45,045 nt of DNA, taken from Acidobacteriota bacterium (GTDB lineage Bacteria > Acidobacteriota > Terriglobia > Bryobacterales > Bryobacteraceae). Every line of letters starts with the position of its first letter. Within the stretch, counting starts at the first letter, position 1. Shown here in pieces: positions 1,504-31,673 of the stretch. Made by a program: the position numbers and the translations under genes. Below the pieces are notes generated by a model. That model searched no databases, was not told the origin of the DNA, and saw only the letters and a program-made list of their open reading frames with translations. The stretch is taken from assembly GCA_026394015.1 (NCBI GenBank), contig JAPKZA010000277.1, positions 73,540 to 118,584 on the forward strand, in the 5' to 3' direction.

Positions 1504-1689
1504 ATCCGTAGGACTCCGCCGCGAACTTCGTTTTGGCGCGGTCGGCCTCGGGTTCGGGTACGAGATCGCGTTTGGGGCGACCGCATCCCAGCTAGTCTTT
1601 GGCGGATCGGTCGGGTCGGCAAACCTTTGGTTAGCGGGCGTACTTGCCAGCACCGGTGCGGCCTTGTTTCCGCAGCGGAGGGAGACTTT

Positions 1690-1729
1690 GTTAACGGTCA
1701 TGTTAAAACGTAGTTTTTTGATTGTGAGG
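1690..1729 (+). repeat. Left terminal inverted repeat, copy A
   Basis: It pairs imperfectly with 2232-2271. The core AAAACGTAGTTTT is itself near-palindromic. Confidence 0.8.
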
Positions 1730-2045
1730 CCGACCGGTACCGCCGTGGAAGCGGCGGGAAAGGGTCAAACCACTTGCTCGGCCGACCGCAGATGGCACAC
1801 CGGCATAATGGTTGAGGCGGGGGAGGACTCGGGCAAGCAGTTGTTTGGGTACCTTGATCTGTCCTCTCTTCGTTCGCCGACTGTGACCGATAACGGCGCT
1901 GGCCCTCGCGGTGCGCCTCGCGTCCCGGAACGCTTTGCTGATAACGCTGATAGGCAGCCTTCCGTTGCTGGCGACGGACTTCCGTGCGACATGGGTCGCA
2001 GCAATAGCGCTGCCCGCCATCGCAGCTAACGCAAACCACGAACAT
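1698..2045 (-). CDS. Cys/Arg-rich small protein carried by element A
   Basis: Read from the ATG at 2045 this is 115 aa. It opens with a Cys cluster (CVSCDGGQRYCCDPC), followed by a very basic stretch (RRQQRKAAYQRYQQS) and a Pro-rich C-terminus with a second Cys cluster (CRCAICG). The pattern suggests a metal-binding, nucleic-acid-binding protein. Short ORFs of this type are common in Acidobacteriota and Proteobacteria and I associate them with IS-like elements, but I cannot confirm that here. The frame extends upstream to a GTG at 2117. In copy B this upstream stretch keeps a Cys pair (CGNSAC) that is Tyr and Gly in copy A, so copy A looks degraded. The stop codon lies inside the left inverted repeat. 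No function is assigned. Confidence 0.5.
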   Translation of the reverse strand: MFVVCVSCDGGQRYCCDPCRTEVRRQQRKAAYQRYQQSVPGREAHREGQRRYRSQSANEERTDQGTQTTACPSPPPPQPLCRCAICGRPSKWFDPFPPLPRRYRSASQSKNYVLT

Positions 2046-2231
2046 CGCTCGGCCTGCTGGATTTCCGTAGAGCTTCTGGCGAAGACCAGGAGAACCATCA
2101 ACACTTGATTCGGCCACCTCGGAATCATGGCATCGGAACGAGCTGAACTAAAGCCGCGTTTCCGACCCACCGCCTCGATGATCCGAGGATGAGTCGCGCC
2201 TCCGGCGCGGATGATGTTGTTGGCGAATCGG

Positions 2232-2271
2232 CCCAATGCTCAGAAAACTACGTTTTATGAGGATCGCTAAC
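2232..2271 (-). repeat. Right terminal inverted repeat, copy A
   Basis: Its reverse complement begins GTTAGCGATCCTCAT and matches the left end. It interrupts the hicB-like frame. Confidence 0.8.
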
Positions 2272-2451
2272 CTCTCTCTTGTAGAGATCGATCACTTCGT
2301 CAACGGCTGTGCATAGTTGTTCGAAAACTGCCAACTCGTTGTCGCCATGGCAGCCGCGGATGAGCAAGCCCGGAGAACTACCGACGAAGCACTGGTCCTC
2401 GTCGGACCACGCCACGATCTTCAAGTAACGTGCGCTCTCCTTTACCGACAC
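2248..2451 (-). pseudogene. hicB: HicB-family antitoxin, 3' half lost at element A
   Basis: The first 60 residues match the HicB antitoxin core: YLKIVAWSDEDQCFVGSSPG, then GCHGDNELAVFEQLCTAVDEVIDLYKRE. After the Glu of YKRE the frame enters the right inverted repeat of element A (from 2271 down) and ends seven codons later in element sequence. Full HicB proteins continue for about 50 residues with a DNA-binding part, which is absent. The sequence on the far side of the element (below 1690) does not continue the protein, so the insertion was followed by loss of flanking DNA. The start is a GTG without a clear ribosome site. No HicA toxin is visible next to it. Confidence 0.7.
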
Positions 2452-2830
2452 CGCAAACTATCCAAACGGAACCCACCTCACGAAGTGTTGATCTGCCGCG
2501 ATTGGGAAAGTGACTCGGTATCGCGCCCAGTCCGGCTGCCCGATACTGGATCCGACAAGTTCGGCCGTCGCCCTTATTGGGCGACCGCCACCCCTCTGTG
2601 TCAGGCCTGCACTTTTGCTCGCCCGCCCCAGCTTCCGCCTCAGCTGTTCGTTGGCGACCACTTCTCCCGCTCGCGGCAGGAGTAGAACCAGCGCCGTGGT
2701 AGGTACACCGTGGCCCCACTTACTCAGGGTAATCCAACCAGGGAATGCAAACCTTCACGGTGGCGGACTGTGCTAGAGTTACAAATTCATATTTGCCCAA
2801 TTTGAGGTGGATTTGAGAGGAGATGACGCG
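2452..2830. other. Gap: no recognisable gene
   Basis: There are open frames on both strands. The longest minus-strand ones (for example to 2719) show no family I know, and a HicA partner for the adjacent hicB fragment is not evident. The region is probably decayed DNA. Confidence 0.35.
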
Positions 2831-3265
2831 ATGTTGCTAATGGGTGTTCCCAAGATTCGTCAGGAGAGTTCGATGTCGTGCTGGCATGCGTCGGCGCGGA
2901 TGTTATATGGGTACAAGCGACGAGCTTCCATTAACCCACTGCCTGCGGCATATACAGCGAATGCTGGTTTGACCGGGCGGCAGTTTATCGATCTGGCAAA
3001 GACGGTAGGTCTCCGGACAGTACCGCAAGTGAACCAGAGCTTTGACTGGAGCTACCTCGACAATCTGCTTCGAGTGTATGGACCCATATGGGCCGCTGGG
3101 AGATGGAACGGATTTCCGCATATTATCGTCATCGTCGGCGCATTTGCGGACGGCAAGATTGCGTACATCGACCCTGCCGATGGGCTGCAGCATGGTCAGG
3201 ACATGAAGTGGTTTAACGAAAAAATCGCATCGGAAGTAGCGATCCCAATGATGTACCTGCCGTAG
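2831..3265 (+). CDS. Papain-like cysteine protease (C70/AvrRpt2-like)
   Basis: This 144-aa protein has the layout of the small papain-like proteases of the AvrRpt2/C70 clan. The nucleophile motif is QESSMSCWHASARML, with Cys near residue 18 and the preceding Gln as oxyanion helper. The His lies in FPHIIVIVGAF (near 106) and the Asp in IDPADG (near 120). I chose the ATG at 2831 because AGAGGAG sits 10 bases upstream; a longer frame from a GTG at 2807 has no ribosome site. No signal peptide is present, so it is cytosolic or exported by a non-Sec route. It stands alone between two copies of the 582-bp element, in a region rich in toxin-antitoxin debris, so it may be a mobile cargo gene. Known relatives include effectors and toxins; the substrate here is unknown. 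Confidence 0.72.
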   Translation: MLLMGVPKIRQESSMSCWHASARMLYGYKRRASINPLPAAYTANAGLTGRQFIDLAKTVGLRTVPQVNQSFDWSYLDNLLRVYGPIWAAGRWNGFPHIIVIVGAFADGKIAYIDPADGLQHGQDMKWFNEKIASEVAIPMMYLP

Positions 3266-3657
3266 GGCGGGTACATTTGATGAGCGAGGGGACACCGCGC
3301 TCCGCCGCCAAAGCGTAGCCGAACCCCTTTCGTGTCGAGGGTTTCGAGAACGTTAGAGTACGTAAATTTCCCTTTCTTGAGGTGCCCCCTAAGAAAGGTA
3401 GTGAAAAACGTGTCCCCCGTTGTCCCCTTGTCCCCCGAAGGTGGTTTTGACACCGAAACGGGGCACCCCCCCGGGGCTGTTGGGTCCTTCCGGACTGTTT
3501 TCCGTGAGAGTTTGAATCTTTGCGCAAGGCCGCTAGTCAGTGGGGTGAAAAGTTGTTGACGGAAGCGGAGACGGGGGGAGATTCAGCGGGGGCCGGGCGT
3601 TTTTGGTGGTGCCGTTCTACGGGAACGTCAAAAGATTTATGGGTTGTAGGCCCAAAT
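3266..3657. other. Gap: no supported gene
   Basis: This stretch between the protease stop and element B has short overlapping frames on both strands, low-complexity runs of GTCCCC type near 3410-3440, and no recognisable protein. It is probably non-coding or decayed. Confidence 0.35.
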
Positions 3658-3697
3658 GTTAACGGTCATGTAAAAACGTAGTTTTTTGATCGTGAGG
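3658..3697 (+). repeat. Left terminal inverted repeat, copy B
   Basis: It pairs imperfectly with 4200-4239 and shares the AAAACGTAGTTTT block. Confidence 0.8.
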
Positions 3698-4013
3698 CCG
3701 ACCGGTACCGCCGTGGAAGCGGCGGGAAAGGGTCAAGCCACTTGCTCTGCCGACCGCAGATGGCACACCGGCAGAATGGTTGAGGCGGGGTAGGACTCGG
3801 GCAAGCAGTTGTTTGGGTACCTTGATCTGTCCTCTCTTCGTTCGCCGACTGTGACCGATAACGGCGCTGGCACTCGCGGTGCGCCTCGCGTCCCGGAACG
3901 CTTTGCTGATAACGCTGAGAGGCAGCCTTCCATTGCTGGCGACGGACTTCCGTGCGACACGGGTCGCAGCAATAGCGCTGCCCGCGATCGCAGCTAACGC
4001 AAACCACGAACAT
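3666..4013 (-). CDS. Cys/Arg-rich small protein carried by element B
   Basis: This is the counterpart of the ORF in copy A, also 115 aa from the ATG at 4013. It keeps CVSCDRGQRYCCDPC and the basic stretch. The in-frame upstream sequence still encodes CGNSACRAM, a further Cys pair that would complete a zinc-binding pattern, but no standard start codon lies between it and the upstream TAG, so the true start is uncertain. Over the 348-bp frame the two copies differ at 11 bases and 10 of these change the residue, which argues that neither copy has been under protein-level selection since they separated. The stop is inside the inverted repeat, as in copy A. Confidence 0.5.
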   Translation of the reverse strand: MFVVCVSCDRGQRYCCDPCRTEVRRQQWKAASQRYQQSVPGREAHRECQRRYRSQSANEERTDQGTQTTACPSPTPPQPFCRCAICGRQSKWLDPFPPLPRRYRSASRSKNYVFT

Positions 4014-4199
4014 CGCTCGGCAGGCTGAATTTCCGCAGAGCTTCTGGCGAAGAACAGGAGAACCATCAACACTTGATTCGGCTACCTCGGAATTATGGCA
4101 TCGGAACGAGCTGAACTAAAGCCGCGTTTCCGACCCACCGCCTCGATGATCCGAGGATGACTCGCGCCTCCGGCGCGGATGATGTTGTTGGCGAATCGG

Positions 4200-4239
4200 C
4201 CCAATGATCAGAAAACTACGTTTTCTGAGGATCGCTAAC
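4200..4239 (-). repeat. Right terminal inverted repeat, copy B
   Basis: Its reverse complement starts GTTAGCGATCCTCAG and matches the left end without gaps. Confidence 0.8.
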
Positions 4240-4411
4240 AGACTTAGGCACTCGTGACAGACGGGACCAGCACGCCAGCGTGGCATTTATCCCTTTACGT
4301 GCACCTTCGCGACATATGGGGTTCTCATGTGTCATTCAGGGTCAGCACCGGGGGGATTGCGGGGAAGCGGACTCCTCTGGCGTTAGACTAAACTTAGGAT
4401 TAGGAGTTGCC

Positions 4412-4603
4412 ATGCAAGATTCTGGCCTTATCGTCTCAAACCCAAAGGTCATGATGGGCAAACCCGTCATTCGGGGGACTCGGATCACCGTCGAGATGCT
4501 TTTGGAGAAATTCGCGGCTGGGCAGACCGAAGAACAAATCCTCCGGGTTCATCCTCACATCACCCGAGAGGGCATCCGGGCCGCTTTATCGTTCGCAGCC
4601 TAA
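4412..4603 (+). CDS. DUF433 antitoxin (VapB45-like)
   Basis: This 63-aa protein carries the DUF433 signature: IVSNPKVMMGKPVIRGTRITVEMLLEK, then ILRVHPHITREGIRAAL, a winged-helix-like DNA-binding fold. The ATG at 4412 has AGGAG six bases upstream; the frame opens earlier but only this start gives a normal family N-terminus. It is followed after 44 bp by a DUF5615 toxin gene, the standard partner. Such antitoxins bind the toxin and usually repress their own promoter. Both members look intact, unlike most TA pairs in this window. Confidence 0.85.
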   Translation: MQDSGLIVSNPKVMMGKPVIRGTRITVEMLLEKFAAGQTEEQILRVHPHITREGIRAALSFAA

Positions 4604-4647
4604 GCGCTGCAGGCGTCGGTTGTGTATCCACTGGAACGCGTGGCATT

Positions 4648-5004
4648 TTGAAGCTGGCGGCGGACGAATGCGTCGAAGCTCCGACGATGTCCGCTCTTCG
4701 CGCCTCTGGCCACGCTGTGCTGTTCATCGCAGAGACCTCTCCGGGAATCGAGGACACGGAAGTATTGGAGATCGCACGCCGGGAACGGGCCCTTCTGCCG
4801 ACCGCCGACAAGGACTTCGGAGAACCGGTCCATCGGAACCGGGAACCGCATCGTGGCGTGCTACTGATTCGGTCGCCAGAAGACGATCCGGACGAAAATG
4901 CGGCTAACGTTCTCGCCGCGGTGGATCAGCACGGACCGGCCCTGCTTGATCGGTTTTCCGTTCTTGTGGGCCGCGCCCTGCGGATTAGAGTTGCGCCCGG
5001 TTAG
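4648..5004 (+). CDS. DUF5615 PIN-like toxin (VapC45-like)
   Basis: This 118-aa protein belongs to the DUF5615 PIN-like ribonuclease group. The acidic start motif (KLAADECV) and the second acidic motif (LLPTADKDFGE, near residue 52) supply the metal-binding carboxylates expected of a PIN fold. Length is normal. The start is a TTG at 4648 with a poor ribosome site; it is chosen because the family begins within two or three residues of the ADE motif. It lies 44 bp after the DUF433 antitoxin and should be co-transcribed with it. Role by family: RNA cleavage toxin held inactive by the antitoxin. Confidence 0.82.
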   Translation: MKLAADECVEAPTMSALRASGHAVLFIAETSPGIEDTEVLEIARRERALLPTADKDFGEPVHRNREPHRGVLLIRSPEDDPDENAANVLAAVDQHGPALLDRFSVLVGRALRIRVAPG

Positions 5005-5071
5005 TCCCGCATCGAGAGAGGCGCAGCTACGACTTCGCGCGAGTGGATGACGGCGCCACTGCATCTTGCAA

Positions 5072-5542
5072 CTATCGACTGAGGTCTGGCTGGTCGCCAC
5101 GATACCGTTCATCGAAGCCAACTTCCCACGGGAGCTTTCCGCTCATGTCGGGCCACACAAGCTGCACAGCCGGAAATTCATCGTGCCCGTAGTACCACTG
5201 TGTGTAAGTCATGCGATTTCGGAGATTTTCGAGCGTCACATGCCGAAACCCGCATGTGTAGCCTTCAAGGAGTTCGTCGGAGGTGTCCCCATTCCTGAAA
5301 CACCCTCGCTCTCGGGCCATCTCGCTAACATCGTTGATCAGCGTGTGCATAGTATCGAGATCGAGCCCGAACAAGATGACCTCGGGTTGTCCGAGATTCT
5401 CGAATAAGCCAAGTGAGTAGGCAAACGCTGGCTCTCCTTCGCCGGCTCCAACCTTGATTACATACCAGCCTTGGTCCTCAAGTATCCGGAGGAGATCCCG
5501 GTCCTGGTCGTCAAGGGTCGGATCTGATGATTGACGCGGCAT
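5072..5542 (-). CDS. DUF4262 protein
   Basis: This 156-aa soluble protein matches DUF4262: LEDQGWYVIKVGAGEGEPAFAYS, then GLFENLGQPEVILFGLDLDTMHTLINDV, and a C-terminal WYYGHDEFPAVQLVWPD segment. Nothing firm is known of the biochemical role of the family; it is common in accessory regions. No signal peptide or membrane segment. It points toward the DUF433/DUF5615 pair and ends 67 bp after that pair. Start at the ATG 5542. Confidence 0.8.
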   Translation of the reverse strand: MPRQSSDPTLDDQDRDLLRILEDQGWYVIKVGAGEGEPAFAYSLGLFENLGQPEVILFGLDLDTMHTLINDVSEMARERGCFRNGDTSDELLEGYTCGFRHVTLENLRNRMTYTQWYYGHDEFPAVQLVWPDMSGKLPWEVGFDERYRGDQPDLSR

Positions 5543-5878
5543 CGGGGTACTCCAAGAGTGTACGTCGGGCTACGTCAACACCACAATTTATCCAACCGGC
5601 GTCAACGCATCGAAACCTCCCGTACCCGCTGAAACAACAGCCGCCCAGCCACTCCCAGCGCGAAGCAAAAAGTTCGAAAGGTATCCACCAGCGGGGGGCC
5701 GGTGGCGTTGTTCCAGACGCCCGTGACCGGACTGATTCCGTTGCGTGGACCCAAGAGGATATTCCACGGAGACACCCTGCGGACTGGGCATCCGCCAAAT
5801 GGACTCCGCCGAAGAGGGCTCGACCTGCTCGGTGCCGTGCTAGAGTGCCACCAGGTAACACCTAGGAGTACTCCGCTT
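5543..5878. other. Gap: no supported gene
   Basis: Open frames exist on both strands but none shows a recognisable protein. The right end should hold the promoter of the RHH/ParE pair: TAGGAG at 5863-5868 precedes the RHH ATG by about 11 bases. Confidence 0.35.
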
Positions 5879-6163
5879 ATGGCGACACTTTCGACGACCA
5901 GCGTAAAGCTCGATAGTGCGATGAAAGAACGTTTACATCGACTGGCCTCGGCGCGCCGCCGGTCCCCGCACTGGGTCATGCGCGAAGCAATCGGACAGTA
6001 TGTGGAGCGCGAGGAGAAGCGGGAGCAACTCCGTCAGGACGCGCTCGCCGCATGGGCCGATTATCAGATCAATGGCCTGCATGTTACCGCCAAGGAAGCT
6101 GACGGGTGGCTCGCCAAACTTGAGGCGGGCAAGCGAGCCGTGATTCCCAAATGCCACGACTGA
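5879..6163 (+). CDS. Ribbon-helix-helix antitoxin (CopG/ParD type)
   Basis: This 94-aa protein starts with a short beta strand and two helices typical of ribbon-helix-helix repressors (TTSVKLDSAMKERLHRLASARRRSPHWVMREAI), followed by a charged helical tail for toxin binding. The ATG at 5879 is chosen by the RHH start and the AGGAG upstream; the frame is open earlier without family similarity. It overlaps the downstream ParE-like gene by 13 bp, the usual antitoxin-first order with translational coupling. It likely represses its own promoter. Intact in length and motifs. Confidence 0.87.
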   Translation: MATLSTTSVKLDSAMKERLHRLASARRRSPHWVMREAIGQYVEREEKREQLRQDALAAWADYQINGLHVTAKEADGWLAKLEAGKRAVIPKCHD

Positions 6164-6441
6164 GGCGGTCCCCGCCGGCCTTGCTGGATATGGCAAGGCT
6201 CCATGAGTTCCTGGCGTCCAAGAGCTCGGATGCAGCACAGCGAGGCGTGAGGGCCATTCGGCAGGGGGTTGAAGCGCTCAGCAGACACCCGGAGATCGGT
6301 CGTCCCGTTGAGGACTTAGCGCCGGAGTTTCGTGAGTGGGTCATCGAATTCGGGCAAGGGGCCTATGTCGCCTTGTATCACTACGACGGGAAGGAGGTGG
6401 TGGTTCTCCCGGTCCGCAACGGACGCGAAGCCGGATATTGA
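6151..6441 (+). CDS. ParE/RelE-family toxin
   Basis: This 96-aa protein has the ParE/RelE plan: an N-terminal helix hairpin (LHEFLASKSSDAAQRGVRAI), LSRHPEIGRPVEDL, then the beta sheet with YVALYHYDGKEVVVLPVRNGREAGY at the C-terminus, a common ParE ending. ParE toxins poison DNA gyrase and RelE toxins cut mRNA; sequence alone does not tell which applies, although partnering with an RHH protein favours ParE. It overlaps the antitoxin by 13 bp. Both look functional. Confidence 0.87.
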   Translation: MPRLRRSPPALLDMARLHEFLASKSSDAAQRGVRAIRQGVEALSRHPEIGRPVEDLAPEFREWVIEFGQGAYVALYHYDGKEVVVLPVRNGREAGY

Positions 6442-6540
6442 TTCCTGCCGGCGCAAATCTGTTCCGTGATCGACCTTCGGCGGGCAGATCACCAAAGTTC
6501 GAAACGCGTCCGCCATACGGGCGTGTCCGGACCACGCATA

Positions 6541-6577
6541 CAACCACGGTGGTTGAGCCCATCGGGCTCTCTCAACC
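6541..6577. terminator. Hairpin cluster after parE-like gene
   Basis: Two mutually exclusive hairpins overlap: CAACCAC/GTGGTTG (6541-6555) and GGTTGAGCCC with GGGCTCTCTCAACC (6551-6577, with a bulge). There is no T-run on either strand, so the terminator role between the converging ParE-like and PEP-CTERM genes is inferred from position. Confidence 0.3.
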
Positions 6578-6701
6578 CCTCGACCGCTCGATTCTCGGTT
6601 GACCGCCCGGCGTCTCCGTGGAAGGTGAAATTCCCCGTATGTTTGCGCGGCGGGGAGTTCCTGGCGCGTGTAAAAGACTCGACGGTTACCTTGGGTGCGT
6701 T

Positions 6702-7991: not shown

Positions 7992-9938
7992 ATGGCCGCT
8001 GCTGTTGAGACCCGTCCTATTTCGAAGTTGCCGGTCTCGTTGGGCCTCGGCTTGATGCTGTGCCTAGTGTCTCCTGGCGGCTCGATGGCCGCTCCTCCCG
8101 AAGCTCTGAAGGCCGATGCGGACAAGTTCTTTCGGGACCGCGTCACCCCCTTTGTGACCACCTATTGCTTGCCCTGCCACCAAAACAGGCGGCCGACGCG
8201 GGGCGGAGTCAATTTCTCACCCGCCCTCAAAACTCCCGGACACGCGGCCTTCACCGAACACTGGAAGCGAGCGGACGCCCGCGTGAAGGCGCATGACATG
8301 CCGCCCAAAAGCGCACCCCAGCCGGACGAGGCCGACCGGCAGATGTTCGGCAATTGGTTGGCGAAGCTGAAATACCTCAGCGACAAAGATCCGGGACCCT
8401 TCGTCATCCGGCGATTGACCAAAACCGAGTATGGCAACACGCTGCGGGATCTATTTGGCGTCGATCCGTCGATTGCCGATGGACTGCCGGACGAAGTCAG
8501 CGGCCAAGGCTACCTCAATTCGCTCTCGTCGCTCCAACTCGAACAGTATCTGACGATCGCGGATAAAGTGTTGCGCCAGATTGTGGCGCCGAAAGGCGGC
8601 CGTCGCACGGAAATCGAGAAGCGGCTTTTCGGCCAGTCTTCCGCGCCGGGGAAAGATCTTCGGGAATCGGCGCGGAAAGTGGCCCGGTCGCTGGCTCGGA
8701 AAGCCTACCGCCGGCCACCGACGGAGGCAGAGCTGGATGTCCTGGTGGCGACGTTCGACCTGGGGCGGCGCAACAAATTGGCCTACCCGCAGGCGCTTCA
8801 ACTGATGACCAAGGCCGTCCTGGTTTCGCCGCAGTTCCTCTTCATAACGCCGGCCGGAGCAGCCGAGCCGAGCGGCGGGATCGTTCCGCTGGACGATTAC
8901 CAACTGGCCTCGCGTTTGTCCTATTTGTTGTGGGCGACGATGCCGGACGACGAACTGATGACTCTGGCCGACAGCGGAAAGCTGCATGAGCCGGCGGTGC
9001 TGCAGGCGCAGGCAAAACGGATGCTGGACGACCGTCGTTCGCGGGCCCTGTTTGACGGCTTCGGCGCACAATGGCTGAGCGTGGGCGGACTGAAACGCCA
9101 AGTCTTCGATCCGGTGATCTTCCCGCAAATGACGACGGGGATGCGCCAGGCGATGTACGACGAAGTCCGCCTGTTTTTTGGGAGCATCGTTCGGGACAAC
9201 GAGAAGGTGATCCGGTTCGTCGATGGCGATTACACCTACCTGAATGAAACCGTGGCGGGGATTTACGGCCTGGAGAAGACGGTGAAGGGAAACGAGATGC
9301 GGAAGGTGCCGCTGCGGGATGGCAATCGCGGCGGCGTGCTAGGGATGCCGGGCATTTTGGCCGCCACGTCGTTCCCCAATCGGACGAGCCCGGTGAAGCG
9401 CGGCGTGTGGGTGCTGGAACAGGTGCTCGGCGAACATGTGCCGGCCGCCCCGCCCGACGTTCCGGCCCTGGACAAGCAGGGGGATGCGGCGGCCGCCAAT
9501 CTGACGGTCCGGCAGCGGACCGAGCTGCATCGCACGAATCCCGTTTGCGCCAATTGTCATCAGATCCTCGACCCGATCGGATTTGGATTGGAGAAGTTCG
9601 ATGCCATCGGGCGGTGGCGCGAGAAGGATAGCAACGGCCAGCCCATCGATGCGGCTGGTGAGCTTCCGGGCGCAAAACGCTTTACGGGGCCGGCGGATTT
9701 GAAAGCCATCATCGCCGGGCGCGACGCCGATGTGGCCCGCAATCTGGTGGAGAAACTGCTGGCCTACGCATTGGGCCGGAAGTTGGAAGGCTACGACGAA
9801 ATTGTGGTGGATGACGTGATGGGGGAGATCGCCGGCGATGGGTACCGCATGCGGGCGCTCATCAATGGGGTGATCACCAGTTACCCGTTTACGCATCGGC
9901 GCATCGAAGAAGTGAGGAGGCTCAATGAGCAGAATTGA
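7992..9938 (+). CDS. Secreted DUF1587/DUF1592/DUF1588/DUF1585 protein with two CxxCH motifs
   Basis: This 648-aa protein has an N-terminal hydrophobic signal (about residues 13-34) and then CLPCH at 59-63, a haem-c-type motif in a cytochrome-like segment. The order of the planctomycete/acidobacterial multi-domain family follows: [17 protein letters not shown] (DUF1587), the DUF1592 core ([22 protein letters not shown]), the DUF1588 segment with [20 protein letters not shown] and a second CANCH at 519-523, and DUF1585 near the end ([18 protein letters not shown]). The start at 7992 is chosen for the signal peptide; the frame opens earlier without similarity. It overlaps the DUF1552 gene by 14 bp. 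Such pairs are widespread and believed periplasmic, with redox or polymer-degradation roles proposed; the reaction is unknown. Confidence 0.88.
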
Positions 9939-11301
9939 CCGGCGGACTTGTTTGAAGGGGTTGGGGGTTTCACTCGCCCTGCCGCTGCTGGATTCCCTGG
10001 GCTGGGCCGACACCCCGAAGGGCAAGGCGTACAAACCGCCGGTCCGGTTGGGCTTCATGTATATGCCCCACGGGGTGATCATGGATCAATTCTGGCCGGC
10101 CAATGCGGAGAGTTTTCTTTCGTCGCCGCCGCCGGCGCTGGAATCGTTGCGCCCGGTGCTGCATCAGTGTCTGCTGATGAAAGGGATTTCCGGCGTCCCC
10201 ATCGCTCCCTTCACGGGGGCACCGCACGCACTGGAACTCTCGACTTGGCTGACGGCGATGTTGCCGGCCGCCGATAAGCGGAACGAGATCAATATCGCTA
10301 TTTCCGCGGATCAGATTGCGGCCAACCACGTCGGTGCCTTCACGGCCTTGCCGTCGCTCGAGTTGGCCACCATGCCACAGACCTGGAAGGAGAACCAGGA
10401 AGGCCTGAACGAGGGTTACTACTCGCACTGTAGCTTTCGTTCGCCGACGCAGGCGGTGCCGGCGGAGGTGAATCCGCGAAACGTACTTTATCGCCTGTTC
10501 AACAAAGAGAAGCAGGGCGGCGGCGCACGGGAATCGTCATCGCTGAGTGCGCTGGATCGAAGCTTGTTGGACATCGTACTGGGTGGCGCGAGAGACCTTC
10601 GCCGTACCTTGCCCACTTCGGACCAGCGGAAGCTGGATGAATACCTGGACAGCGTGCGATCGGTGGAGCGGCGGATCGCTGCTATTGAGTACCGCCAGAA
10701 AGACGCTGCGATGGAGAAGGCGGGCGTCCGCGCCAGCAAGCGCAACGACTCCGATTCGCCGCCGATCGAGATCCGGATTCCGGAGGGCGAAAAGCGGAGC
10801 GAGTATATGCAGGTGATGTGCGACCTGAACATCCTCGCGTTCCAGACCGATACGACCCGGGTCAGCACCTACATTGGCTCGACACCGAACGGGGCTTCTT
10901 ATCCGGAGCTGGGTTTCAACGACCAGCATCACTCGAACACCCATCACAACCACGATGCGGAAAAGGTTCGGAAGATCGCCCGGATCACCGAATTCAATAT
11001 TACGCAGTTTGCGTATATGGTGAAGAAGATGGAGGGCTTACGGGAAGCCGGCGGTACTTTGCTCGACAACTGCATCATGATGTGGGGATCGGGGCTTGAG
11101 GATGGCAACAAGCATACTCGCGAGAACCTTCCGTTTGTGATTGCCGGGAAAGGTGGCGGTTCGTTGAAAACGGGACGTTACTTTGCGGAGACGAAGGGAA
11201 ATCAGGGTGATTTGCTGACGACGCTGCTAGCCTGCGCGGGTATTCCGATCGACCGGCCGGTGGGGATTGCGACGAAGCAGATTACGGAGATGAAGGCGTA
11301 G
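9925..11301 (+). CDS. DUF1552 protein with Tat-like signal
   Basis: This 458-aa protein opens with [25 protein letters not shown], a twin-arginine-type export signal. The body matches DUF1552: [19 protein letters not shown] near the start, a long helical middle ([19 protein letters not shown]), and a C-terminal half with [13 protein letters not shown] and [20 protein letters not shown]. The latter part resembles the alkaline-phosphatase-like DUF1501 group. Its ATG overlaps the end of the preceding gene, so the two are translationally coupled; this pairing is standard across Planctomycetota and Acidobacteriota. Several His clusters could bind metal. The substrate is unknown. Confidence 0.88.
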
Positions 11302-15410: not shown

Positions 15411-16253
15411 CTACAGGCGGATCCTCAGCTTGACTAAGAACGGTTCGCCCGGCTTGACGGCTACCCGATAGACCGTCTGCGGGGCGGGATCGTCCTGCGT
15501 TAAAGCTCGCGTTCGCCCGGCCGCCGCGGCTTGCTCGGCGCGGGTCCAGGGTTGACCGGAGCCGCCCGCCAACTCGAACACCCCGGGCTTGACGGCTCCC
15601 CATTTGGCTTCCCATTCGGCGACCTGCGGTTCGCTGAGCTTCAGGGCGCGCGGGCCGATGGCGAGGCCTTCGAGAGGCGTCGGGGTGAGCAATACCGTTA
15701 ACTCTTCCCCGGTTTGATCGGTCCGGCTGCGGCGGAGCGAGAAGAAGTTGGGCCGATCTTCCTGGCCGGGGATATCGATCAACCGGCCAGCGGCTACCTG
15801 GTTGTCTCCGCCGTTGGTGCGGGTGGTGGGAAAGATCAGGTACGGCTCTCCCCGGGTTCCGTTAGCGTACTGCTCGCGGTCAATGACGTAGAGGTAACCG
15901 GACTCCGGAGATTCCAGGCTCAGGCGGACCTTGTCACCAACCTTCAACCGGCTCGTCGAGGAGACGCGCTCGGGGATCCATTCCTGGGTTTGGGTCTCTT
16001 CCTGGACGAGGATCCGGGCCGCGGCGGTATCGGTGGCGGTGGCGGCGCGGAGACGCCAGATGGTGACGCCGATTTGGCGGCCCGGGGCGGCGGGCCGGGC
16101 GACGGCGGCGACGGGTTGATACTTCGGCTTAGGGGCCGCGGGGGTGGCGGGCGTGGGCCGGGCCTGGACGACTTCCTCGGGGACGATGCCGCGCGTGGCG
16201 GTCTGGGCGGAAAGGCCGACGGTGATCGCGAATAGGAATGCTGATTTTGTCAT
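15411..16253 (-). CDS. Secreted DUF4384-like protein (last gene of the sigma-kinase-CHAT run)
   Basis: This 280-aa protein has a short signal peptide (KSAFLFAITVGLSAQT), a Pro/Ala-rich linker (about residues 28-60), and a DUF4384-like domain at about 100-200: LKVGDKVRLSLESPESGYLYVIDRE, then EPYLIFPTTRTNGGDNQVAAGRLIDIP. The C-terminal 60 residues include TVYRVAVKPGEPFLVKLRIRL. DUF4384 domains are typically linked to Ser/Thr kinases or to CHAT/caspase-like proteins and are thought to be envelope sensor or adaptor modules. The gene follows the CHAT gene with a 6-bp gap and belongs to the same transcription unit. The kinase three genes upstream carries a similar extracytoplasmic part. Confidence 0.78.
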   Translation of the reverse strand: MTKSAFLFAITVGLSAQTATRGIVPEEVVQARPTPATPAAPKPKYQPVAAVARPAAPGRQIGVTIWRLRAATATDTAAARILVQEETQTQEWIPERVSSTSRLKVGDKVRLSLESPESGYLYVIDREQYANGTRGEPYLIFPTTRTNGGDNQVAAGRLIDIPGQEDRPNFFSLRRSRTDQTGEELTVLLTPTPLEGLAIGPRALKLSEPQVAEWEAKWGAVKPGVFELAGGSGQPWTRAEQAAAAGRTRALTQDDPAPQTVYRVAVKPGEPFLVKLRIRL

Positions 16254-16259
16254 GACGAT

Positions 16260-19214
16260 TTACCTCCACTCTCCTTGCTGGACAAATGCGGCCCAGTAAT
16301 AGGGCGATGCCCACTTACTTTGCTTGCGCAGTGCTAGTTGGGCCTGGCGCAGCGCGGCGGCGGGGCGGAGGCCATTTTGCAACATTCGGCGGTACATGGT
16401 GGTCATTAACTCCGCGGTGGCGCGGTCGTTGACGTTCCATAGGCTGACGACCACTCTCGGCGCTCCCGCGTAGAGGAACGCCCGGGGCATGCCCAGGAGG
16501 CCTTCGCCCCGCACGTCCTTCCCCAGCCCGGTTTGACAGGCGCTGAGGACGACGAGGTCGGCGTGGAACTCGAGGTTGTAGATATCGTTGACGCGAAGAA
16601 AGCCGTCTTCGCGGCCTCCTTTCTCGTCCTCAAAGGAGAGCAGGAGGGCGGAGAGACCCGGGCGTTCGGGGTCGAGGTAGCCGTGGGTGGCGAAGTGGAC
16701 GAAGCGGTATTCCGCCAGGCTGGGGTCGAGCGCGGCAGGGCGGTTGGCTTTGGCTCCGAGGGCCAGGAGGTTGCCGGCCTTTGGCGTCAAGCGGGTGATT
16801 TGTTCGGCCTCGCGGCGGGTGTAGGGCAGCTGGGGGATTTCGGTATTGCCTTCGCCGAAGTGTTCGAGGAGCCGGGTGGGTGCGGGTGCGCCGCGAAAGA
16901 CGGGGTCGGCAAACATGGCGATGGAGCGGGTGGGGCGTGGGCGGCCGAGGGCCCCGGCGCGGAGAAGGGCGATGCTGGAAGCGGAGGGCAGGCTGACGGT
17001 CTCCATCGTCTCGACGAGAAGGGCGGGGCTGCCGGGCCGGGGCAACACGGCAAAGGGGACGCGTTGGAGGGCTCCGTCGGCAATGACAATCAAGCGTTCC
17101 GCGGTGAGCATGGCGGCGGCCGGGGCCAGGATGGAGTGGCTGAGGGCGGCGGCGGCCGCTTTGGTGGCTTCGTCGTTCTGCGCCTTCAGGGCTTGGGCCA
17201 ACGTGTTGGCCAAGGATTCGAGTTCCTGCCTTCCGGGCAAGACGTAGCTTTGGAAGGCGGTTTTGCTGGCGGCGAACAGGTAGCTCCGTTCCTGGCCGAG
17301 GACAAATTCGAGGAGCACGGTGCCGGGTTCCAGTTGCTCCTTTTGCAACTGCTCGACTCCGAGGGGGACGGGCTGGGTGACGGAGGCATAGCGGGGGCTG
17401 GCTTGGCGGATGGCGGTTTCGATTTCCTGGCGTTGGGTTTCGAGGTTTTGGATGGCGGCGAGCAGGGGATCGGCCTCTTTGCGGCCATAGACTGGGAGAA
17501 GCCGGGCTCCGAGGGCGTTGATCTTTTCGCCGATTTGGCGGGCCTGGGCGAGGAGGGGGGCGGGCGCGTCCATGCGGAGGCCGGCTCCGGCTTCCGAGAG
17601 CATGTCGAGAAGGCCGCGGGCGCGGGCGCGTTCGGCCATGGCGAAGGCCGCCGCGGGGTCCTTTAGGCGCATGAGCAGGTCGACGGCAAACTCGTAGTCG
17701 TTCTGGCGGCTGGCCAGATAGAGAGCTCGGAGTTCCTGGGCGTGGGCTTCGCGCCGGATGGATTCGGCGATGGCCAGGGAGCGGTCGATGGTTGCTTTGG
17801 CGGTGGTCAGTTGTCCCGAGGCGGCCTGAATGCGGGCGATGGTGGCTAGCGTTCGGGCTTCGCCGGCGCGGTCTGTAATGGCTCGGAACGTCTCCAGGGC
17901 GGCTTCGGCGAGCGTCAGGGCTTCGGGGGCGTTGCCTTGTTCCAACTTGACGATGGCGAGCGCTTCGCCGATGGCGGCCCCTTGGCGGCGTTCCTGGATT
18001 TCGCTCGCGAGGGCGAGGCCTTGGCGTAACGAAGTCTCGGCTTCGGCGAGGCGTCCGAGTCGGCGCAGCGCTTCGCCGTAGTTGCGGGCGGTCCGGACCT
18101 GCGCCAGCTTGTCGGCGCTTTCGGTGCCCAGAATCCGCGCTCGTTCGAGGTGCGGGATGGCTTCGGCGGGTCGGTTCAGGGAGATTTCCGTGTAACCGAG
18201 AGCGCCTTCGGTGTCGGCTTCCCCTCGTTTGTCGCCGACGGCTTGGCGGGCGGCGAGGGCTTTTTCGAACATTGGCCGAGCTTGGGAGGCGTCGCCTAAG
18301 CCGAGGTGCGCTAAGCCGATGTTGTGGACGAGGAGCGCTGCGCGGCGCCGGTCTCCGGTGGCCTGGACGATGGGCAAGGCCAAGGCATAGGAGGAGAGGG
18401 AGGCCTGCCAGTTGCCGAGGTTGGCTTCCAGGATGCCGAGGTTGTTCAAGACGAGGCCTTCGCCGGCGCGGTCTGCGTTGGCACGGTGGCGGGCGAGGGC
18501 GTCCTGGTAGGCGGTGCGGGCTGGGAGCGGCTCTCCGAGTACGTCCCACATGCCTCCTTCGAAGTTTTTTGTGGCGGCCAGGCGTCGTTGGTCTCCGAGC
18601 AAGGTAAAGAGCCGTCCGGCGTCTTGGATGCTCTTGAGCGCGGGGCGGAATTGGGCGGCCGCGGCCTGGACGCTGCCGATCGAAAATTGGACGATCGCTT
18701 CGTAGTAGCGGTCCCCTTTGGCGATGAAGTACGGCAGAGCGAGGGCATACTCGGCGAGGGCGAGCGACCGCCCCGCCGCGGAGCGCACTGTGAGGGCGGC
18801 TTCGGCCTTTTCGAAGTGGCTAAAGGCTTCGGCCAGTTCCCGATCCCCTGGGCCCCAGGCGAGGACCTGGAACCGGAAGGCTCCCCCGGCCGGGGCTTTG
18901 ACCTCCAAGCGATACTCGCCTGCGCTGCGGGCTGTATAAGCGACCGTTTCCGGCCCGTGGGCCCCGTTGCCGATATCCGCCCTGAAGACTGTGCGGCCGG
19001 TAGGGTCCCGCAAGGTGACCACAACGTCTGTTCCGGCCTGGGTGATCACGACATGCGCCACTTCGCCCGCCGCGAGAGTTCCGCTGAACTCCGCGGGGGT
19101 GGCTCCGGTTAACTGGCGCTCTCCTGCGAGACCCACTCGCAACGGCTCTCCTTGGGCCCAACTACCCGTTGCCAGGGCTAACCCGAAGAGAATGCGCCAG
19201 TACGCCGGTTTCAT
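16260..19214 (-). CDS. Secreted TPR-CHAT cysteine protease
   Basis: This 984-aa protein begins with a signal peptide (PAYWRILFGLALATGSWAQG), followed by a beta-type domain (about 22-125), a helical TPR array (about 200-480; repeats such as LVLNNLGILEANLGNWQASL and LVHNIGLAHLGLGDASQARP), and a C-terminal CHAT domain (about 680-984). The catalytic dyad is visible: His844 in FATHGY and Cys893 in VLSACQTG, followed by the family end WAAFVQQGEW. CHAT domains are caspase/separase-like proteases; TPR-CHAT proteins act in several bacterial signalling and defence systems such as Craspase. The signal peptide places this one outside the cytoplasm, unlike the defence examples. It starts 12 bp after the beta-rich gene and ends 6 bp before the DUF4384 gene. 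Confidence 0.9.
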   Translation of the reverse strand: MKPAYWRILFGLALATGSWAQGEPLRVGLAGERQLTGATPAEFSGTLAAGEVAHVVITQAGTDVVVTLRDPTGRTVFRADIGNGAHGPETVAYTARSAGEYRLEVKAPAGGAFRFQVLAWGPGDRELAEAFSHFEKAEAALTVRSAAGRSLALAEYALALPYFIAKGDRYYEAIVQFSIGSVQAAAAQFRPALKSIQDAGRLFTLLGDQRRLAATKNFEGGMWDVLGEPLPARTAYQDALARHRANADRAGEGLVLNNLGILEANLGNWQASLSSYALALPIVQATGDRRRAALLVHNIGLAHLGLGDASQARPMFEKALAARQAVGDKRGEADTEGALGYTEISLNRPAEAIPHLERARILGTESADKLAQVRTARNYGEALRRLGRLAEAETSLRQGLALASEIQERRQGAAIGEALAIVKLEQGNAPEALTLAEAALETFRAITDRAGEARTLATIARIQAASGQLTTAKATIDRSLAIAESIRREAHAQELRALYLASRQNDYEFAVDLLMRLKDPAAAFAMAERARARGLLDMLSEAGAGLRMDAPAPLLAQARQIGEKINALGARLLPVYGRKEADPLLAAIQNLETQRQEIETAIRQASPRYASVTQPVPLGVEQLQKEQLEPGTVLLEFVLGQERSYLFAASKTAFQSYVLPGRQELESLANTLAQALKAQNDEATKAAAAALSHSILAPAAAMLTAERLIVIADGALQRVPFAVLPRPGSPALLVETMETVSLPSASSIALLRAGALGRPRPTRSIAMFADPVFRGAPAPTRLLEHFGEGNTEIPQLPYTRREAEQITRLTPKAGNLLALGAKANRPAALDPSLAEYRFVHFATHGYLDPERPGLSALLLSFEDEKGGREDGFLRVNDIYNLEFHADLVVLSACQTGLGKDVRGEGLLGMPRAFLYAGAPRVVVSLWNVNDRATAELMTTMYRRMLQNGLRPAAALRQAQLALRKQSKWASPYYWAAFVQQGEWR

Positions 19215-19226
19215 GAGGCGGGCTCT

Positions 19227-19955
19227 CTATTCTGCTGCCGGAGGATAAACCGGCGGGGTGGGTTCGTCATCGATGGGTCCCTGGCCAGAGGCTTCCCAGT
19301 CCAGTTCCGCTTTTGGCCCACCTACAATCGTTCCGACGTAACCACCCGTGAGCGGGTTGGGTCCCCCGTTGCGGTTGACCCCCAGAAGGGTGGGGAATCC
19401 AGTAAAGGTAGCGTTGCCGGAGACCCAGCTGAGCGAGTCGTCGGAGCCCACGGTGACCTGCACTCCTGGCGGCTGCGAGCCAGAGGCGATGTAGGTGACG
19501 CTGCCGGTGGCGGAAAAGTTGAGCGATCCGACTGTGGTGCCCGCCGCCGTCACCGTCATGTTAGCGCCAAAGCTGTTTCCGACCACGTCGCCGATTCCGG
19601 CGACGGTGAAGGCCACGCCATTGATGGTCATGCTTTGGCTGAGGAAGTAGTACTTGCCTCCGAAGAAAATCAACGAGGCTGTGTTGAAGTTCCAAACGTC
19701 GGTGCCGGCCGTGATCGAAAACGTTGCAATACTGCCGAATTGCAGCAGATTGGACGAATAGGTGACCGAGGCGGAGCCGTTCGTGGCAGCCGCACCGTAG
19801 CGGATGCCGACGACGGGCGCGCCGGTGCTGGTAACCGATAGAAAGAGCCTGCCGCGAAAGGGGAGACCGCCGCTGACGGGTCGGCGTGACGCCCGCGGGG
19901 GCCGGACAAACATACGCAATTCGGCCGGTCCTGTCGGCCAAGGTAACGAAGGCAT
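19227..19955 (-). CDS. Beta-rich protein of unknown function between kinase and CHAT genes
   Basis: This 242-aa protein has a strong ribosome site (AAAAGGAG) before the ATG at 19955, so the frame is real. It is rich in Gly, Ser, Thr and aromatic residues in short alternating strands (for example SVTYSSNLLQFGSIATFSITAG and FFGGKYYFLSQSMTING) and ends in an acidic, Pro-rich tail (DDEPTPPVYPPAAE). There is no signal peptide or membrane helix. I do not recognise a family. It lies 19 bp after the kinase and 12 bp before the CHAT protease gene. A role as substrate or partner of the protease or kinase is a guess from position only. It lacks recognisable gasdermin features. Confidence 0.65.
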   Translation of the reverse strand: MPSLPWPTGPAELRMFVRPPRASRRPVSGGLPFRGRLFLSVTSTGAPVVGIRYGAAATNGSASVTYSSNLLQFGSIATFSITAGTDVWNFNTASLIFFGGKYYFLSQSMTINGVAFTVAGIGDVVGNSFGANMTVTAAGTTVGSLNFSATGSVTYIASGSQPPGVQVTVGSDDSLSWVSGNATFTGFPTLLGVNRNGGPNPLTGGYVGTIVGGPKAELDWEASGQGPIDDEPTPPVYPPAAE

Positions 19956-19974
19956 AATAATTCTCCTTTTGATT

Positions 19975-21504
19975 CTATACGTGACGTAGTTGTAGTAACT
20001 CGCCGGCCATGCCGGCGGGTAAGCGTGTGAGTAAGTTGCGAATTCCCGCGTCGCGTGTTTGGTCCGCGCGGCCTGGCTTGGCGATTAATTCTCGCGGTTT
20101 CTCCGACCAGATGACCCACACTCGTTCCATGCCTGGGGTCTGGTCGAACACATACCATCCGGTGACGGTGGCCCCGGCGGGCTGGGCGGCTTCTCCGGAT
20201 AGAGGATAGATCACGGCCACGTCGTTGGCGGTCTCGGTGAGCACGTAGAAGAACCCGGGCTGTGCCGCGTAGAGCCGGAGGCGAAATTTCCAGCCGGCCC
20301 GGAAGGTGTCGGTGACGGCGGCGCGGTAGGGCAGTTGGCCGGGTTCTTTCTGGGCTTCGAGTTCGTAACGGAGGGCGGGGCCGGTGGTCCAGCGTGAGAT
20401 TCCGAGCGTCAGGCCGCCGGCGGCTAGGGCCGAAGCTCCGGCGAGGAGCCAGCGGCGGCTTTGGGTTGCCGCGGGGGCCAGAATATCTTCGAGCTTTTCG
20501 GCCAGTTCGGTCATAGAGGGAAGGCGCGCTTCCGGCTTTTTAGCGAGGCACTTGGCGATGAGGTCCGCAAGTTGGCGGGTGGCGGCGGGATTGATGGAAT
20601 CGACGCGAGGCGGATCTTCGTTGACGATTTTGGTCAAGGTTGCCATGGCGTCCTTGCCTTGGAAGGGCCGGCGTTTGGCCGCCATTTCATACAGAATCAC
20701 CCCGAGGGCAAAGATGTCGGCGCGGGCGTCGGCGGTTTCTCCCTGGGCGACCTCGGGGGCCATGTAGGTGGGGGTACCCATGAGTAGGTTATGTTCGGTG
20801 GAGGAGTCTCCGGACTGCCGGGCGAGTTTGGCGATGCCGAAATCGAGGACTTTGACGAGTCCACCGTCGGCGATCATGATGTTGGCCGGTTTCAAATCCC
20901 GATGGACAATGCCCGCCGCATGAGCGCTAGCGAGCGCCTTGGCGGTCTGCCGGGCGATTTCCAGTAGCTCCGCCAACGGGGGCGGGTGCTGCTTCAGCAG
21001 TTGGGCGAGGGTCACTCCCCGGATGTATTCCATGGCTATAAAATCGATTTCATCCGCGCATCCATACTCGTAAATGGTGATGATGTTGGGATGGTTCAAC
21101 GCCGATGCGGCGCGAGCTTCGCGGGCAAATCGGCGCCGCTCTTCTTCGGTCTCGCCGAGCGAGGTGAGGACTTTGAGGGCGGCCAAACGGTCCAGCCGCT
21201 CGTCCTTGGCCAGATACACGACGCCCATGCCTCCGGCCCCGAGCTTGTCCGTAATCTCGTACTGCGCCAGTCGTCGACCGGGGGCTAGTTCCTGGGTGAA
21301 CGGCTGCACTTTTCCGATGGGCGAGCGGTCGATCCAGGTGGCGGTGGCCTCGGCACTTTCGAGGAGCGAATTCACTTCCGCCGCCAGTTCGGCGTCGCCG
21401 ACGGTCGCCTCCGCGACGTAGGCGATCCGCCGGTCGGTGGACAATTCGAGCGCGCTTTCGACGATCTCGCGAACTACCTGCCAGCGTTCCGCCTCAGGTC
21501 CCAT
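19975..21504 (-). CDS. Membrane Ser/Thr protein kinase with DUF4384-like sensor
   Basis: From the ATG at 21504 this is 509 aa. Residues 1-65 form the helical N-terminal segment common in acidobacterial kinases. The kinase domain covers about 81-345: Gly loop LGAGGMG (88-94), Lys111, HRDLKPAN (201-208, catalytic Asp203), DFG (221-223), GTPTYMAPE. One membrane helix (351-371) leads to an outside part at 390-480 (FRAGWKFRLRLYAAQPGFFYVL, then FDQTPGMERVWVIWS) that resembles DUF4384. A longer start at 21549 is possible; 21504 is chosen because related kinases begin close to ERWQ. It lies 105 bp after the ECF sigma gene (60 bp with the longer start), and kinases next to such sigma factors are proposed to control them by phosphorylation. 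Confidence 0.9.
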   Translation of the reverse strand: MGPEAERWQVVREIVESALELSTDRRIAYVAEATVGDAELAAEVNSLLESAEATATWIDRSPIGKVQPFTQELAPGRRLAQYEITDKLGAGGMGVVYLAKDERLDRLAALKVLTSLGETEEERRRFAREARAASALNHPNIITIYEYGCADEIDFIAMEYIRGVTLAQLLKQHPPPLAELLEIARQTAKALASAHAAGIVHRDLKPANIMIADGGLVKVLDFGIAKLARQSGDSSTEHNLLMGTPTYMAPEVAQGETADARADIFALGVILYEMAAKRRPFQGKDAMATLTKIVNEDPPRVDSINPAATRQLADLIAKCLAKKPEARLPSMTELAEKLEDILAPAATQSRRWLLAGASALAAGGLTLGISRWTTGPALRYELEAQKEPGQLPYRAAVTDTFRAGWKFRLRLYAAQPGFFYVLTETANDVAVIYPLSGEAAQPAGATVTGWYVFDQTPGMERVWVIWSEKPRELIAKPGRADQTRDAGIRNLLTRLPAGMAGELLQLRHV

Positions 21505-21609
21505 AGAGGCCGATCCTAGCACACCCGGAATTGGCGTTAGAGTTTTCATCGCGCATCGCTCTCACTAGGGTTAGCGATGATTCGTCGCGCGTTCGGCCAG
21601 CCGCTTGAA

Positions 21610-22170
21610 TTATTTTTCGCGTTTCATTTCGCGGAGGAGCCAGAGGCGGGCCGAGGCCCAAGATCGTCCAATGGAGCGGGGGGATATTTTTAGGGCGTGG
21701 GCGATCTCTTCGGTGGACAATCCGCCGAAGAAGCGGAGTTCGACGATCTTGCTTTGGATGGGGTCCAGCTTGGCCAAGGCTTCGAGCGCGTCGTCCAGGG
21801 CGATGAGTTCGATGGCTTTGGGCTGGCCGGCGGTGAGCGCTTCGTCGAACTCGACCATGGTGGCGCCGGATCCGCGCTTGGCGGCTTCCCGGCCGCGGGC
21901 GTGGTCGACGAGGATGCGGCGGATGAGTTGGCTGCTGACGGCGAAGAAGTGGGCGCGATCTTGCCAGGCGACGTCCGGGCCGCTGATGAGGCGCAAGAAG
22001 GCTTCATTGACGAGGGCCGTGCTTTGGAGGGTATGTTCGTTCCGTTCCCTGGCTAACTGGCGGTGGGCCATGCGGCGCAATTCGGCGTAGACGATGGGCG
22101 TGAGGGCCTCGAGGGCCGCCGGGTCGCCTTCGCCCCATTTGCGGAGCAGTCCGGTGAGGTCTTCGTTCAT
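21610..22170 (-). CDS. ECF-type RNA polymerase sigma factor (PF07638/TIGR02999 type)
   Basis: This 186-aa protein has the sigma-2 region near 10-80 (LTPIVYAELRRMAHRQLARE, TLQSTALVNEAFLRL) and sigma-4 near 130-180 (LDPIQSKIVELRFFGGLSTEEIAHAL, then SPRSIGRSWASARLWLLREM). The HTLQSTALVNEAFLRL wording is typical of the planctomycete/acidobacterial ECF group that is usually found next to Ser/Thr kinases and without an anti-sigma factor. Its ATG overlaps the stop of the GH29 gene (ATGA at 22167-22170), so its translation should be coupled to that gene. It is the likely regulator of the kinase-CHAT run, directly or in response to the kinase. Confidence 0.92.
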   Translation of the reverse strand: MNEDLTGLLRKWGEGDPAALEALTPIVYAELRRMAHRQLARERNEHTLQSTALVNEAFLRLISGPDVAWQDRAHFFAVSSQLIRRILVDHARGREAAKRGSGATMVEFDEALTAGQPKAIELIALDDALEALAKLDPIQSKIVELRFFGGLSTEEIAHALKISPRSIGRSWASARLWLLREMKREK

Positions 22171-31193: not shown

Positions 31194-31673
31194 CTACTTT
31201 AACCGCTTCGGCGGAAAGTAGTAACGGCGGAGTAGGCCGCGGGCGCGGCTCAGCCTGGACATGACGGTGCCGAGGGGGATTTGGAGGAGATCGGCGACCT
31301 CCTTATAGGACAGCTCGTCGAGGTCGGCGAGTTGGAGGACCTGGCGATAGGGGGCGGGCAACTGGGCGAGGGCGCGGGAGAGGTCGAGATCGGGAAGGGT
31401 GGGCGGGGCAACGAGAGGTTCGAGAGGTTGATGAGAGGGCCAGCGACGACGATGATGACGGGCGCAGTGGAACAGGATGCGAAAGAGCCAGGCACGGAAA
31501 TTGGTGCCGAGTTCAAAGCTGGGGAACTTCCGCCAGGCGATGAGGAACGTGTCCTGGAGAACGTCTTCGGCGGGGCCGGCGTGGCCGAGCAGGCGGACGG
31601 CGGCGCGGAGCAGGGCGGGCTGATGGCAGAGGGCTTCGGCGGCGAAGTGGTGAGAAAGGCTCAGGGTATCCAC
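31194..31673 (-). CDS. ECF sigma factor (RpoE type)
   Basis: This 159-aa protein has sigma-2 (LLGHAGPAEDVLQDTFLIAWRKF, then NFRAWLFRILFHCARHHRRR) and sigma-4 (LPAPYRQVLQLADLDELSYKEVADLL, then GTVMSRLSRARGLLRR). It is a standard ECF sigma factor different from the one at 21610. No anti-sigma gene lies next to it; the immediate downstream gene, 4 bp away, is the SelA-like protein. It is divergent from the Kelch gene with 56 bp between starts. Confidence 0.92.
   Translation of the reverse strand: MDTLSLSHHFAAEALCHQPALLRAAVRLLGHAGPAEDVLQDTFLIAWRKFPSFELGTNFRAWLFRILFHCARHHRRRWPSHQPLEPLVAPPTLPDLDLSRALAQLPAPYRQVLQLADLDELSYKEVADLLQIPLGTVMSRLSRARGLLRRYYFPPKRLK

Follow-up and report, generated by a model that had tools for sequence, protein, structure and literature searches.

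What brings the genes for an ECF sigma factor, a Ser/Thr kinase, a small beta-rich protein, a TPR-CHAT protease and a DUF4384 protein together in the genome of a soil bacterium (Acidobacteriota), and do their products take part in a common pathway or just happen to be encoded side by side? Bacterial proteases of the CHAT and C14 types are numerous and, to our knowledge, their substrates and triggers are known in few cases, and an arrangement such as this one may help to explain what caspase-like proteases do in bacteria. Within the window, i.e., the whole stretch of 45,045 nucleotides analysed, an ORF check found the five genes on the minus strand at 15411..22170, in agreement with a preliminary description that had presented them as a five-gene module, and the gaps between them are 60, 19, 12 and 6 bp (the first had been given as 60-105 bp, of which 60 bp holds, 105 bp corresponding to the next ATG of the kinase gene). 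Four of the five products proposed there were confirmed by family scans, the sigma factor scoring 208.7 bits against TIGR02999/PF07638 (cut-off 126.15), the CHAT domain of P0002 scoring 227 bits (cut-off 24) and the exported protein P0001 scoring 30.8 bits against DUF4384 (PF14326; cut-off 27), next to the recognisable kinase, while the beta-rich protein P0003 had no credible family match in the same scans. The features are collected in Table 1.

Table 1. Genes, domains and codons of the locus, in coordinates of the window.
Feature	Coordinates	Strand	Remarks
Alpha-L-fucosidase P0006	22167..23783	-	Lineage-specific upstream gene; 4 bp overlap with ECF start
ECF sigma factor P0005 (186 aa)	21610..22170	-	TIGR02999/PF07638; QSTA in sigma region 2.2
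Codon of Thr51 (P0005)	22018..22020	-	By motif, counterpart of the Thr that is phosphorylated in ECF43 factors
Ser/Thr kinase P0004 (524 aa)	19975..21549	-	Pkinase; kinase domain ~97-348; hydrophobic segment ~368-385; DUF4384-like C-terminus
DUF4384-like C-terminal domain of P0004, residues 385-524	19978..20397	-	hhalign; periplasmic side inferred
Beta-rich slot protein P0003 (242 aa)	19227..19955	-	No signal peptide seen; AAAAGGAG ahead of start
DWEA close to the C-terminus of P0003, matching [DNST]W.A (W220, last predicted strand)	19290..19301	-
TPR-CHAT protease P0002 (984 aa), predicted exported	16260..19214	-	TPR + CHAT
Codon of His844, predicted dyad of P0002	16683..16685	-	Invariant 8/8
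Codon of Cys893, predicted dyad of P0002	16536..16538	-	Invariant 8/8
DUF4384 protein P0001 (280 aa), predicted exported	15411..16253	-	DUF4384 family match

The fucosidase gene is also found upstream of the ECF gene in locus L041 (with the same 4-bp overlap) and in L040 (directly upstream), and in 0 of the 18 other loci searched, some of which lie on short contigs; because of its overlap with the ECF start, the gene set in the host genus may begin farther upstream than the five genes. The adjacent window genes that were scanned encode sugar- and metabolism-type enzymes.

Recurrence of the arrangement was followed both from the DUF4384 protein and from the CHAT protease, gene finding outside the window relying on ORF scripts and home-made profiles, and repeat loci being removed before counting (8 of the first set, 6 and 10 of the later ones). 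With a profile made for the exported DUF4384 protein, strong matches were obtained in 18 of the 396 genomes of the phylum; 31 places were listed, and 24 of them, leaving out the one of the host genome and six others, were fetched. As the members of this profile were CHAT-linked, the starting point is not fully independent of the protease. A DUF4384-kinase was encoded in 19 of the 24 loci, a caspase-fold protease in 20 and both in 15 (15, 16 and 11, respectively, of the 20 loci left after the subtraction of four repeats of earlier contigs), while the number of loci with a caspase-fold protease expected from the per-genome CHAT and C14 counts would be 1.72 of 24, or 1.48 of 20, under random placement, an assumption made although such genes cluster. 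The protease was CHAT only in 14 of the 20 protease-bearing loci, whereas six (L136, L138, L139, L141, L142 and L150) contained a Peptidase_C14, two of them together with a CHAT; the four without any caspase-fold protease were L137, L144, L151 and L153, an M48 peptidase being encoded nearby in L151 and a kumamolisin-type one in L153. In L138, L141, L142 and L150, proteins encoded beside the DUF4384 genes end in RPR[VA]FY and differ in their N-terminal parts, and a caspase domain was confirmed for those of L138, L142 and L150.

From the protease side, 80 CHAT loci were gathered with a profile of eight relatives (six of these loci being contigs already in the profile), their phylum labels were assigned from the record titles, and a gene was counted wherever it lay in the stretch fetched, many contigs ending early. 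A DUF4384-kinase was accompanied by a separate DUF4384 gene in 18 of the 50 acidobacterial loci, 12 of them also with an ECF43-type sigma factor and six without; a further six had parts of the module (DUF4384 only in four, kinase only in one, kinase and ECF in one), and 26 had none, as was the case for all 29 cyanobacterial loci and the single KSB1 locus. The same order of genes is seen in further genera and families. A quick tree of 108 CHAT domains placed the CHATs of modules and those with a slot gene (the position occupied by the beta-rich gene, see below) mostly in one set of 34 rows (SH-aLRT 96), composed of 16 slot-associated, 14 module CHATs without a slot and four with neither, whereas four module rows fell outside it (two further copies in L071, plus L076 and L118). 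That a kinase and a DUF4384 gene simply come with any CHAT neighbourhood was considered and rejected, as none of the seven further CHAT genes in the host genome had either of them in the 8-20 kb stretches seen (two reaching a contig end). One of these seven, L024, does have an ECF gene of another type (9814-10683; TIGR02937, and not among the best 25 for TIGR02999) overlapping the CHAT start, and the vicinity of an ECF and a CHAT gene is thus not per se special to the module.

Might these be envelope genes under ordinary co-regulation that share a neighbourhood and no pathway? The composition does differ between the loci, seven CHATs of the same genome do without the kinase and DUF4384 in the stretches seen, and more than half of the acidobacterial CHAT loci (those 26 of 50) show no part of the module, all of which would suit such an explanation; the association of DUF4384 with a caspase-fold protease, far above random placement, and a gene order kept across families make it, in our view, quite improbable. 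As to the module of the preliminary description, its genes do recur together, and it is the exact five-gene set that did not withstand the neighbourhood searches: the protease may be CHAT or C14, the slot gene gives way to unrelated sequences or is missing, and the ECF type is often absent. The stable core, therefore, is the kinase, DUF4384 and a clan-CD protease, and the five-gene set is one version of it.

The kinase has intact catalytic residues, Lys, HRD and DFG being conserved without exception in all nine aligned DUF4384-kinases. A hydrophobic segment separates the kinase and the C-terminal domains in 21 of 21 DUF4384-kinases examined (best 18-residue means of 1.3-3.6, weak in a few, the host genus included), which would place the C-terminal part outside the membrane. 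The earlier suggestion that this outer part is DUF4384-like was borne out through a profile-profile comparison, in which the profile of the kinase C-termini matched that of the DUF4384 proteins with an hhalign probability of 96.9% (E 1.3e-10), Pfam giving no DUF4384 match in P0004 at E<=1. An L-x-H motif at the extreme C-terminus (L521 and H523 in P0004) is common to the nine aligned DUF4384-kinases.

The sigma factor, to which the group name ECF43 is applied by resemblance, has no acidic DAED motif and carries QSTA, with T51, as its QTTA-like motif; a Hanks-type kinase with intact catalytic residues adjoins it, Thr51 is conserved in 12 of the 13 aligned module ECFs (the exception being L108), and in many full modules the ECF gene directly precedes that of the kinase. 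It bears both the threonine and the neighbouring kinase expected of the phosphorylation-activated ECF43 factors, which supports the preliminary description, where ECF factors of this group were said to be proposed targets of neighbouring kinases. In the case of EcfP, the cognate kinase is reported to phosphorylate the Thr of the 2.2 motif, and for EcfK, T51E activates, T51A is reported as still functional and further linker sites matter (sources for these and the other comparison systems: PMC8999054, PMC13147305, PMC6426788, PMC8283722, PMC7475262, PMC10028731, PMC8195603). Judging by these analogies, activation of P0005 through phosphorylation of Thr51 is likely, though the functional T51A of EcfK and the lack of Thr51 in L108 count against it. 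All the ECF counts given here cover the ECF43 type only, since the home-made profile missed the other-type ECF in L024, and with this restriction the factor is missing from 14 of the 24 loci found through DUF4384. The kinase could, then, form a sensor with the two DUF4384 proteins and have other targets, the ECF being a bystander or controlled otherwise; its presence in just 10 of those 24 loci, and in nine of the 19 with the kinase (this type alone scored), would fit such a division, against which stand the retention of Thr51 and the position of the ECF gene directly ahead of the kinase in many full modules, and we find it rather unlikely.

The His844/Cys893 dyad predicted for the protease, described earlier as intact, is made up of residues that are both invariant in the eight aligned CHATs. 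Signal peptides, called with a home-made heuristic and a reading of the sequence rather than with SignalP, were supported for both the CHAT and the DUF4384 protein, in line with what had been claimed, and were found in 27 of the 32 CHATs tested, P0002 among them.

The beta-rich gene is another matter. As a single conserved family it was rejected, strong matches among 150 genomes of the bacterial family being limited to the host genome and G004 (with five further ones at E 0.003-0.01), and what recurs is the position, a diversifying slot usually found directly ahead of the CHAT gene. A lipocalin-like small beta-barrel is no more than a candidate fold for the slot protein. Slot genes, identified by reading ORF lists, fall into 13 sequence families, among which profile comparisons reached a probability of 21% at best (reversed decoys up to 2.3%), hinting at homology between them. 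Nine of the families have [DNST]W.A near the C-terminus, i.e., seven of 11 discovery families and two of three held-out loci, as compared to five of 192 control genes and none of 50 ORFs, each the longest one ahead of a CHAT that lacks the module; the motif was picked after the first set had been viewed, and the held-out set is small, three of 37 new loci having the layout, one of which, L133, carries a C70 papain-like protease gene rather than a slot gene. Within family F8 the motif is present in one of three members, family F11 (L081) follows the kinase without being directly ahead of CHAT, L123, from the host genus, shows the motif and was excluded as non-independent, and the partly masked slot of L044 was left out. 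In eight of the loci with a kinase, no slot gene could be recognised among the ORFs listed. Peptidase_C70 (AvrRpt2-like papain-fold) genes lie beside module CHATs in L133 (5697-6743), L075 (2099-3514) and L081 (8229-9653), perhaps as another occupant of the slot. The slot gene of L048 (3107-3722) seems to be frameshifted between its start and the conserved part, unless this is an error of a low-coverage contig.

The slot seems to follow the protease: L043 has two CHATs, each with a slot of its own, and L046 and L044 have a slot and a CHAT with neither the module kinase nor an ECF43-type ECF in the stretch seen. We tentatively suggest, with a probability of about one in three, that the slot protein would be a cognate partner or substrate of the neighbouring CHAT, recognised via its W.A-containing C-terminal end. 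A pairing of substrate and enzyme is, however, at odds with their predicted compartments, none of the 17 slot proteins with a covered N-terminus having a signal peptide by the same heuristic (20 entries were run, three of them, two second halves and L048, lacking the true N-terminus), whereas 27 of 32 CHATs have one; the two would have to meet although a Sec signal is missing from the slot protein, an absence that the model of the preliminary description leaves unexplained.

Another reading is a circuit resembling Craspase, with the slot protein as a cytoplasmic sigma inhibitor that the CHAT cleaves, freeing the factor, in the manner of Csx29-Csx30. That CRISPR system likewise unites a His-Cys TPR-CHAT protein (Csx29) with an ECF-like factor (CASP-sigma) and a further protein (Csx30). 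The likely trigger here is a kinase and not an RNA-guided effector; no Cas family, such as that of the type III-E Cas7-11 effector, came up when 19 products of the window, those of all direct neighbours among them, were scanned; the CHAT domain of P0002 had no match to Csx29 among PDB sequences at E<=1; its apparent export departs from the cytoplasmic TPR-CHAT of Craspase; the slot protein is small and beta-rich; and slots go with the CHAT even where kinase and ECF type are lacking (L046, L044), their sequences being wholly different while the ECFs are alike. We give such a circuit little credence.

Bacterial gasdermins provide a precedent for a pore set free by a protease, and a cell-death or defence device, with the slot protein as a toxin or pore released in a gasdermin-like manner, would account for a caspase-fold protease adjoining a fast-diverging small protein. 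Neighbourhoods with a caspase and an ECF have, in addition, been proposed as conflict systems. The slot proteins have no strong membrane segment (best 18-residue hydropathy means of 0.6-1.8), the PADLOC matches are to generic kinase and TPR models, and the scanned surroundings in the window are of the metabolic type noted above, on which account we hold a defence device to be very unlikely.

The reading that we favour, to which we assign a probability of roughly 0.5 for the circuit as a whole, is that of an envelope-signalling module running from the kinase through the sigma factor to the protease genes. Through its DUF4384 domain, which may pair or compete with the DUF4384 protein that is exported, the kinase would sense the periplasmic state; it would then phosphorylate Thr51 of the sigma factor; the phosphorylated factor would bind RNA polymerase and transcribe the operon, the protease gene included; and the protease would act in the envelope. 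Instead of the pathway activating the protease itself, as the preliminary description had it, the sigma factor may control its expression. A further extension, speculative and on balance doubtful, is a kinase-gated caspase-like pathway with an exchangeable cargo, in which each CHAT would recognise, by the shared C-terminal W.A motif, a rapidly diverging beta-rich protein of its own, and the kinase and the sigma factor would set the expression of both in response to outside signals; if true, this would make the cargo a marker of a new kind, linked to a protease and perhaps to self/non-self distinction.

How does the proposed envelope-signalling module compare with what has been described? Pairs of ECF43 factors and Hanks kinases (EcfP-PknT, EcfK-PknS) are alike in the adjacent kinase, the lack of a DAED-type motif and Thr51, and differ in that the module kinase has a DUF4384-like C-terminus, a caspase-fold protease is added along with a DUF4384 protein predicted to be exported, and phosphorylation is a prediction here. 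Orthocaspases fused to DUF4384 share the domain and the protease fold, whereas the module has separate neighbouring genes, an ECF in many cases and mostly CHAT as the protease; DUF4384 is also said to co-occur with N-terminal kinase domains. CHAT proteins are reported in the genetic context of ECF54 sigma factors, the control of which is proposed to be proteolysis, unlike in the module with its kinase neighbour and Thr51, and the EACC2/caspase/ECF conflict-system neighbourhoods combine a caspase with an ECF sigma factor but have other partner domains, a word search of the available text returning no DUF4384. In the open-licence literature searched, we found no description of the combination of kinase, ECF, DUF4384, protease and slot, nor any paper on a CHAT domain with DUF4384, and the gene set of this soil bacterium looks undescribed. 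For some CHAT/C14 proteases, the module suggests which sensor and switch probably lie upstream, and it supplies DUF4384 as a constant partner and, often, a candidate partner encoded next door. DUF4384 itself, which occurs on the kinase as well as on the exported protein, would thereby receive a role that can be tested.

Some minor observations concern the surroundings of these genes. In L054 (8844-9317) and L098 (13826-14311), where no slot gene is seen, small, similar proteins with a signal-peptide-like start are encoded after the CHAT. Positions 1-6700 of the window have a slightly lower G+C content (57-60%) and no ORF of at least 180 aa, in contrast to most of the window, and the segment 29558-31673 contains a second sigma-70-like gene (31194-31673), located 4 bp ahead of a gene for a PLP-dependent enzyme.
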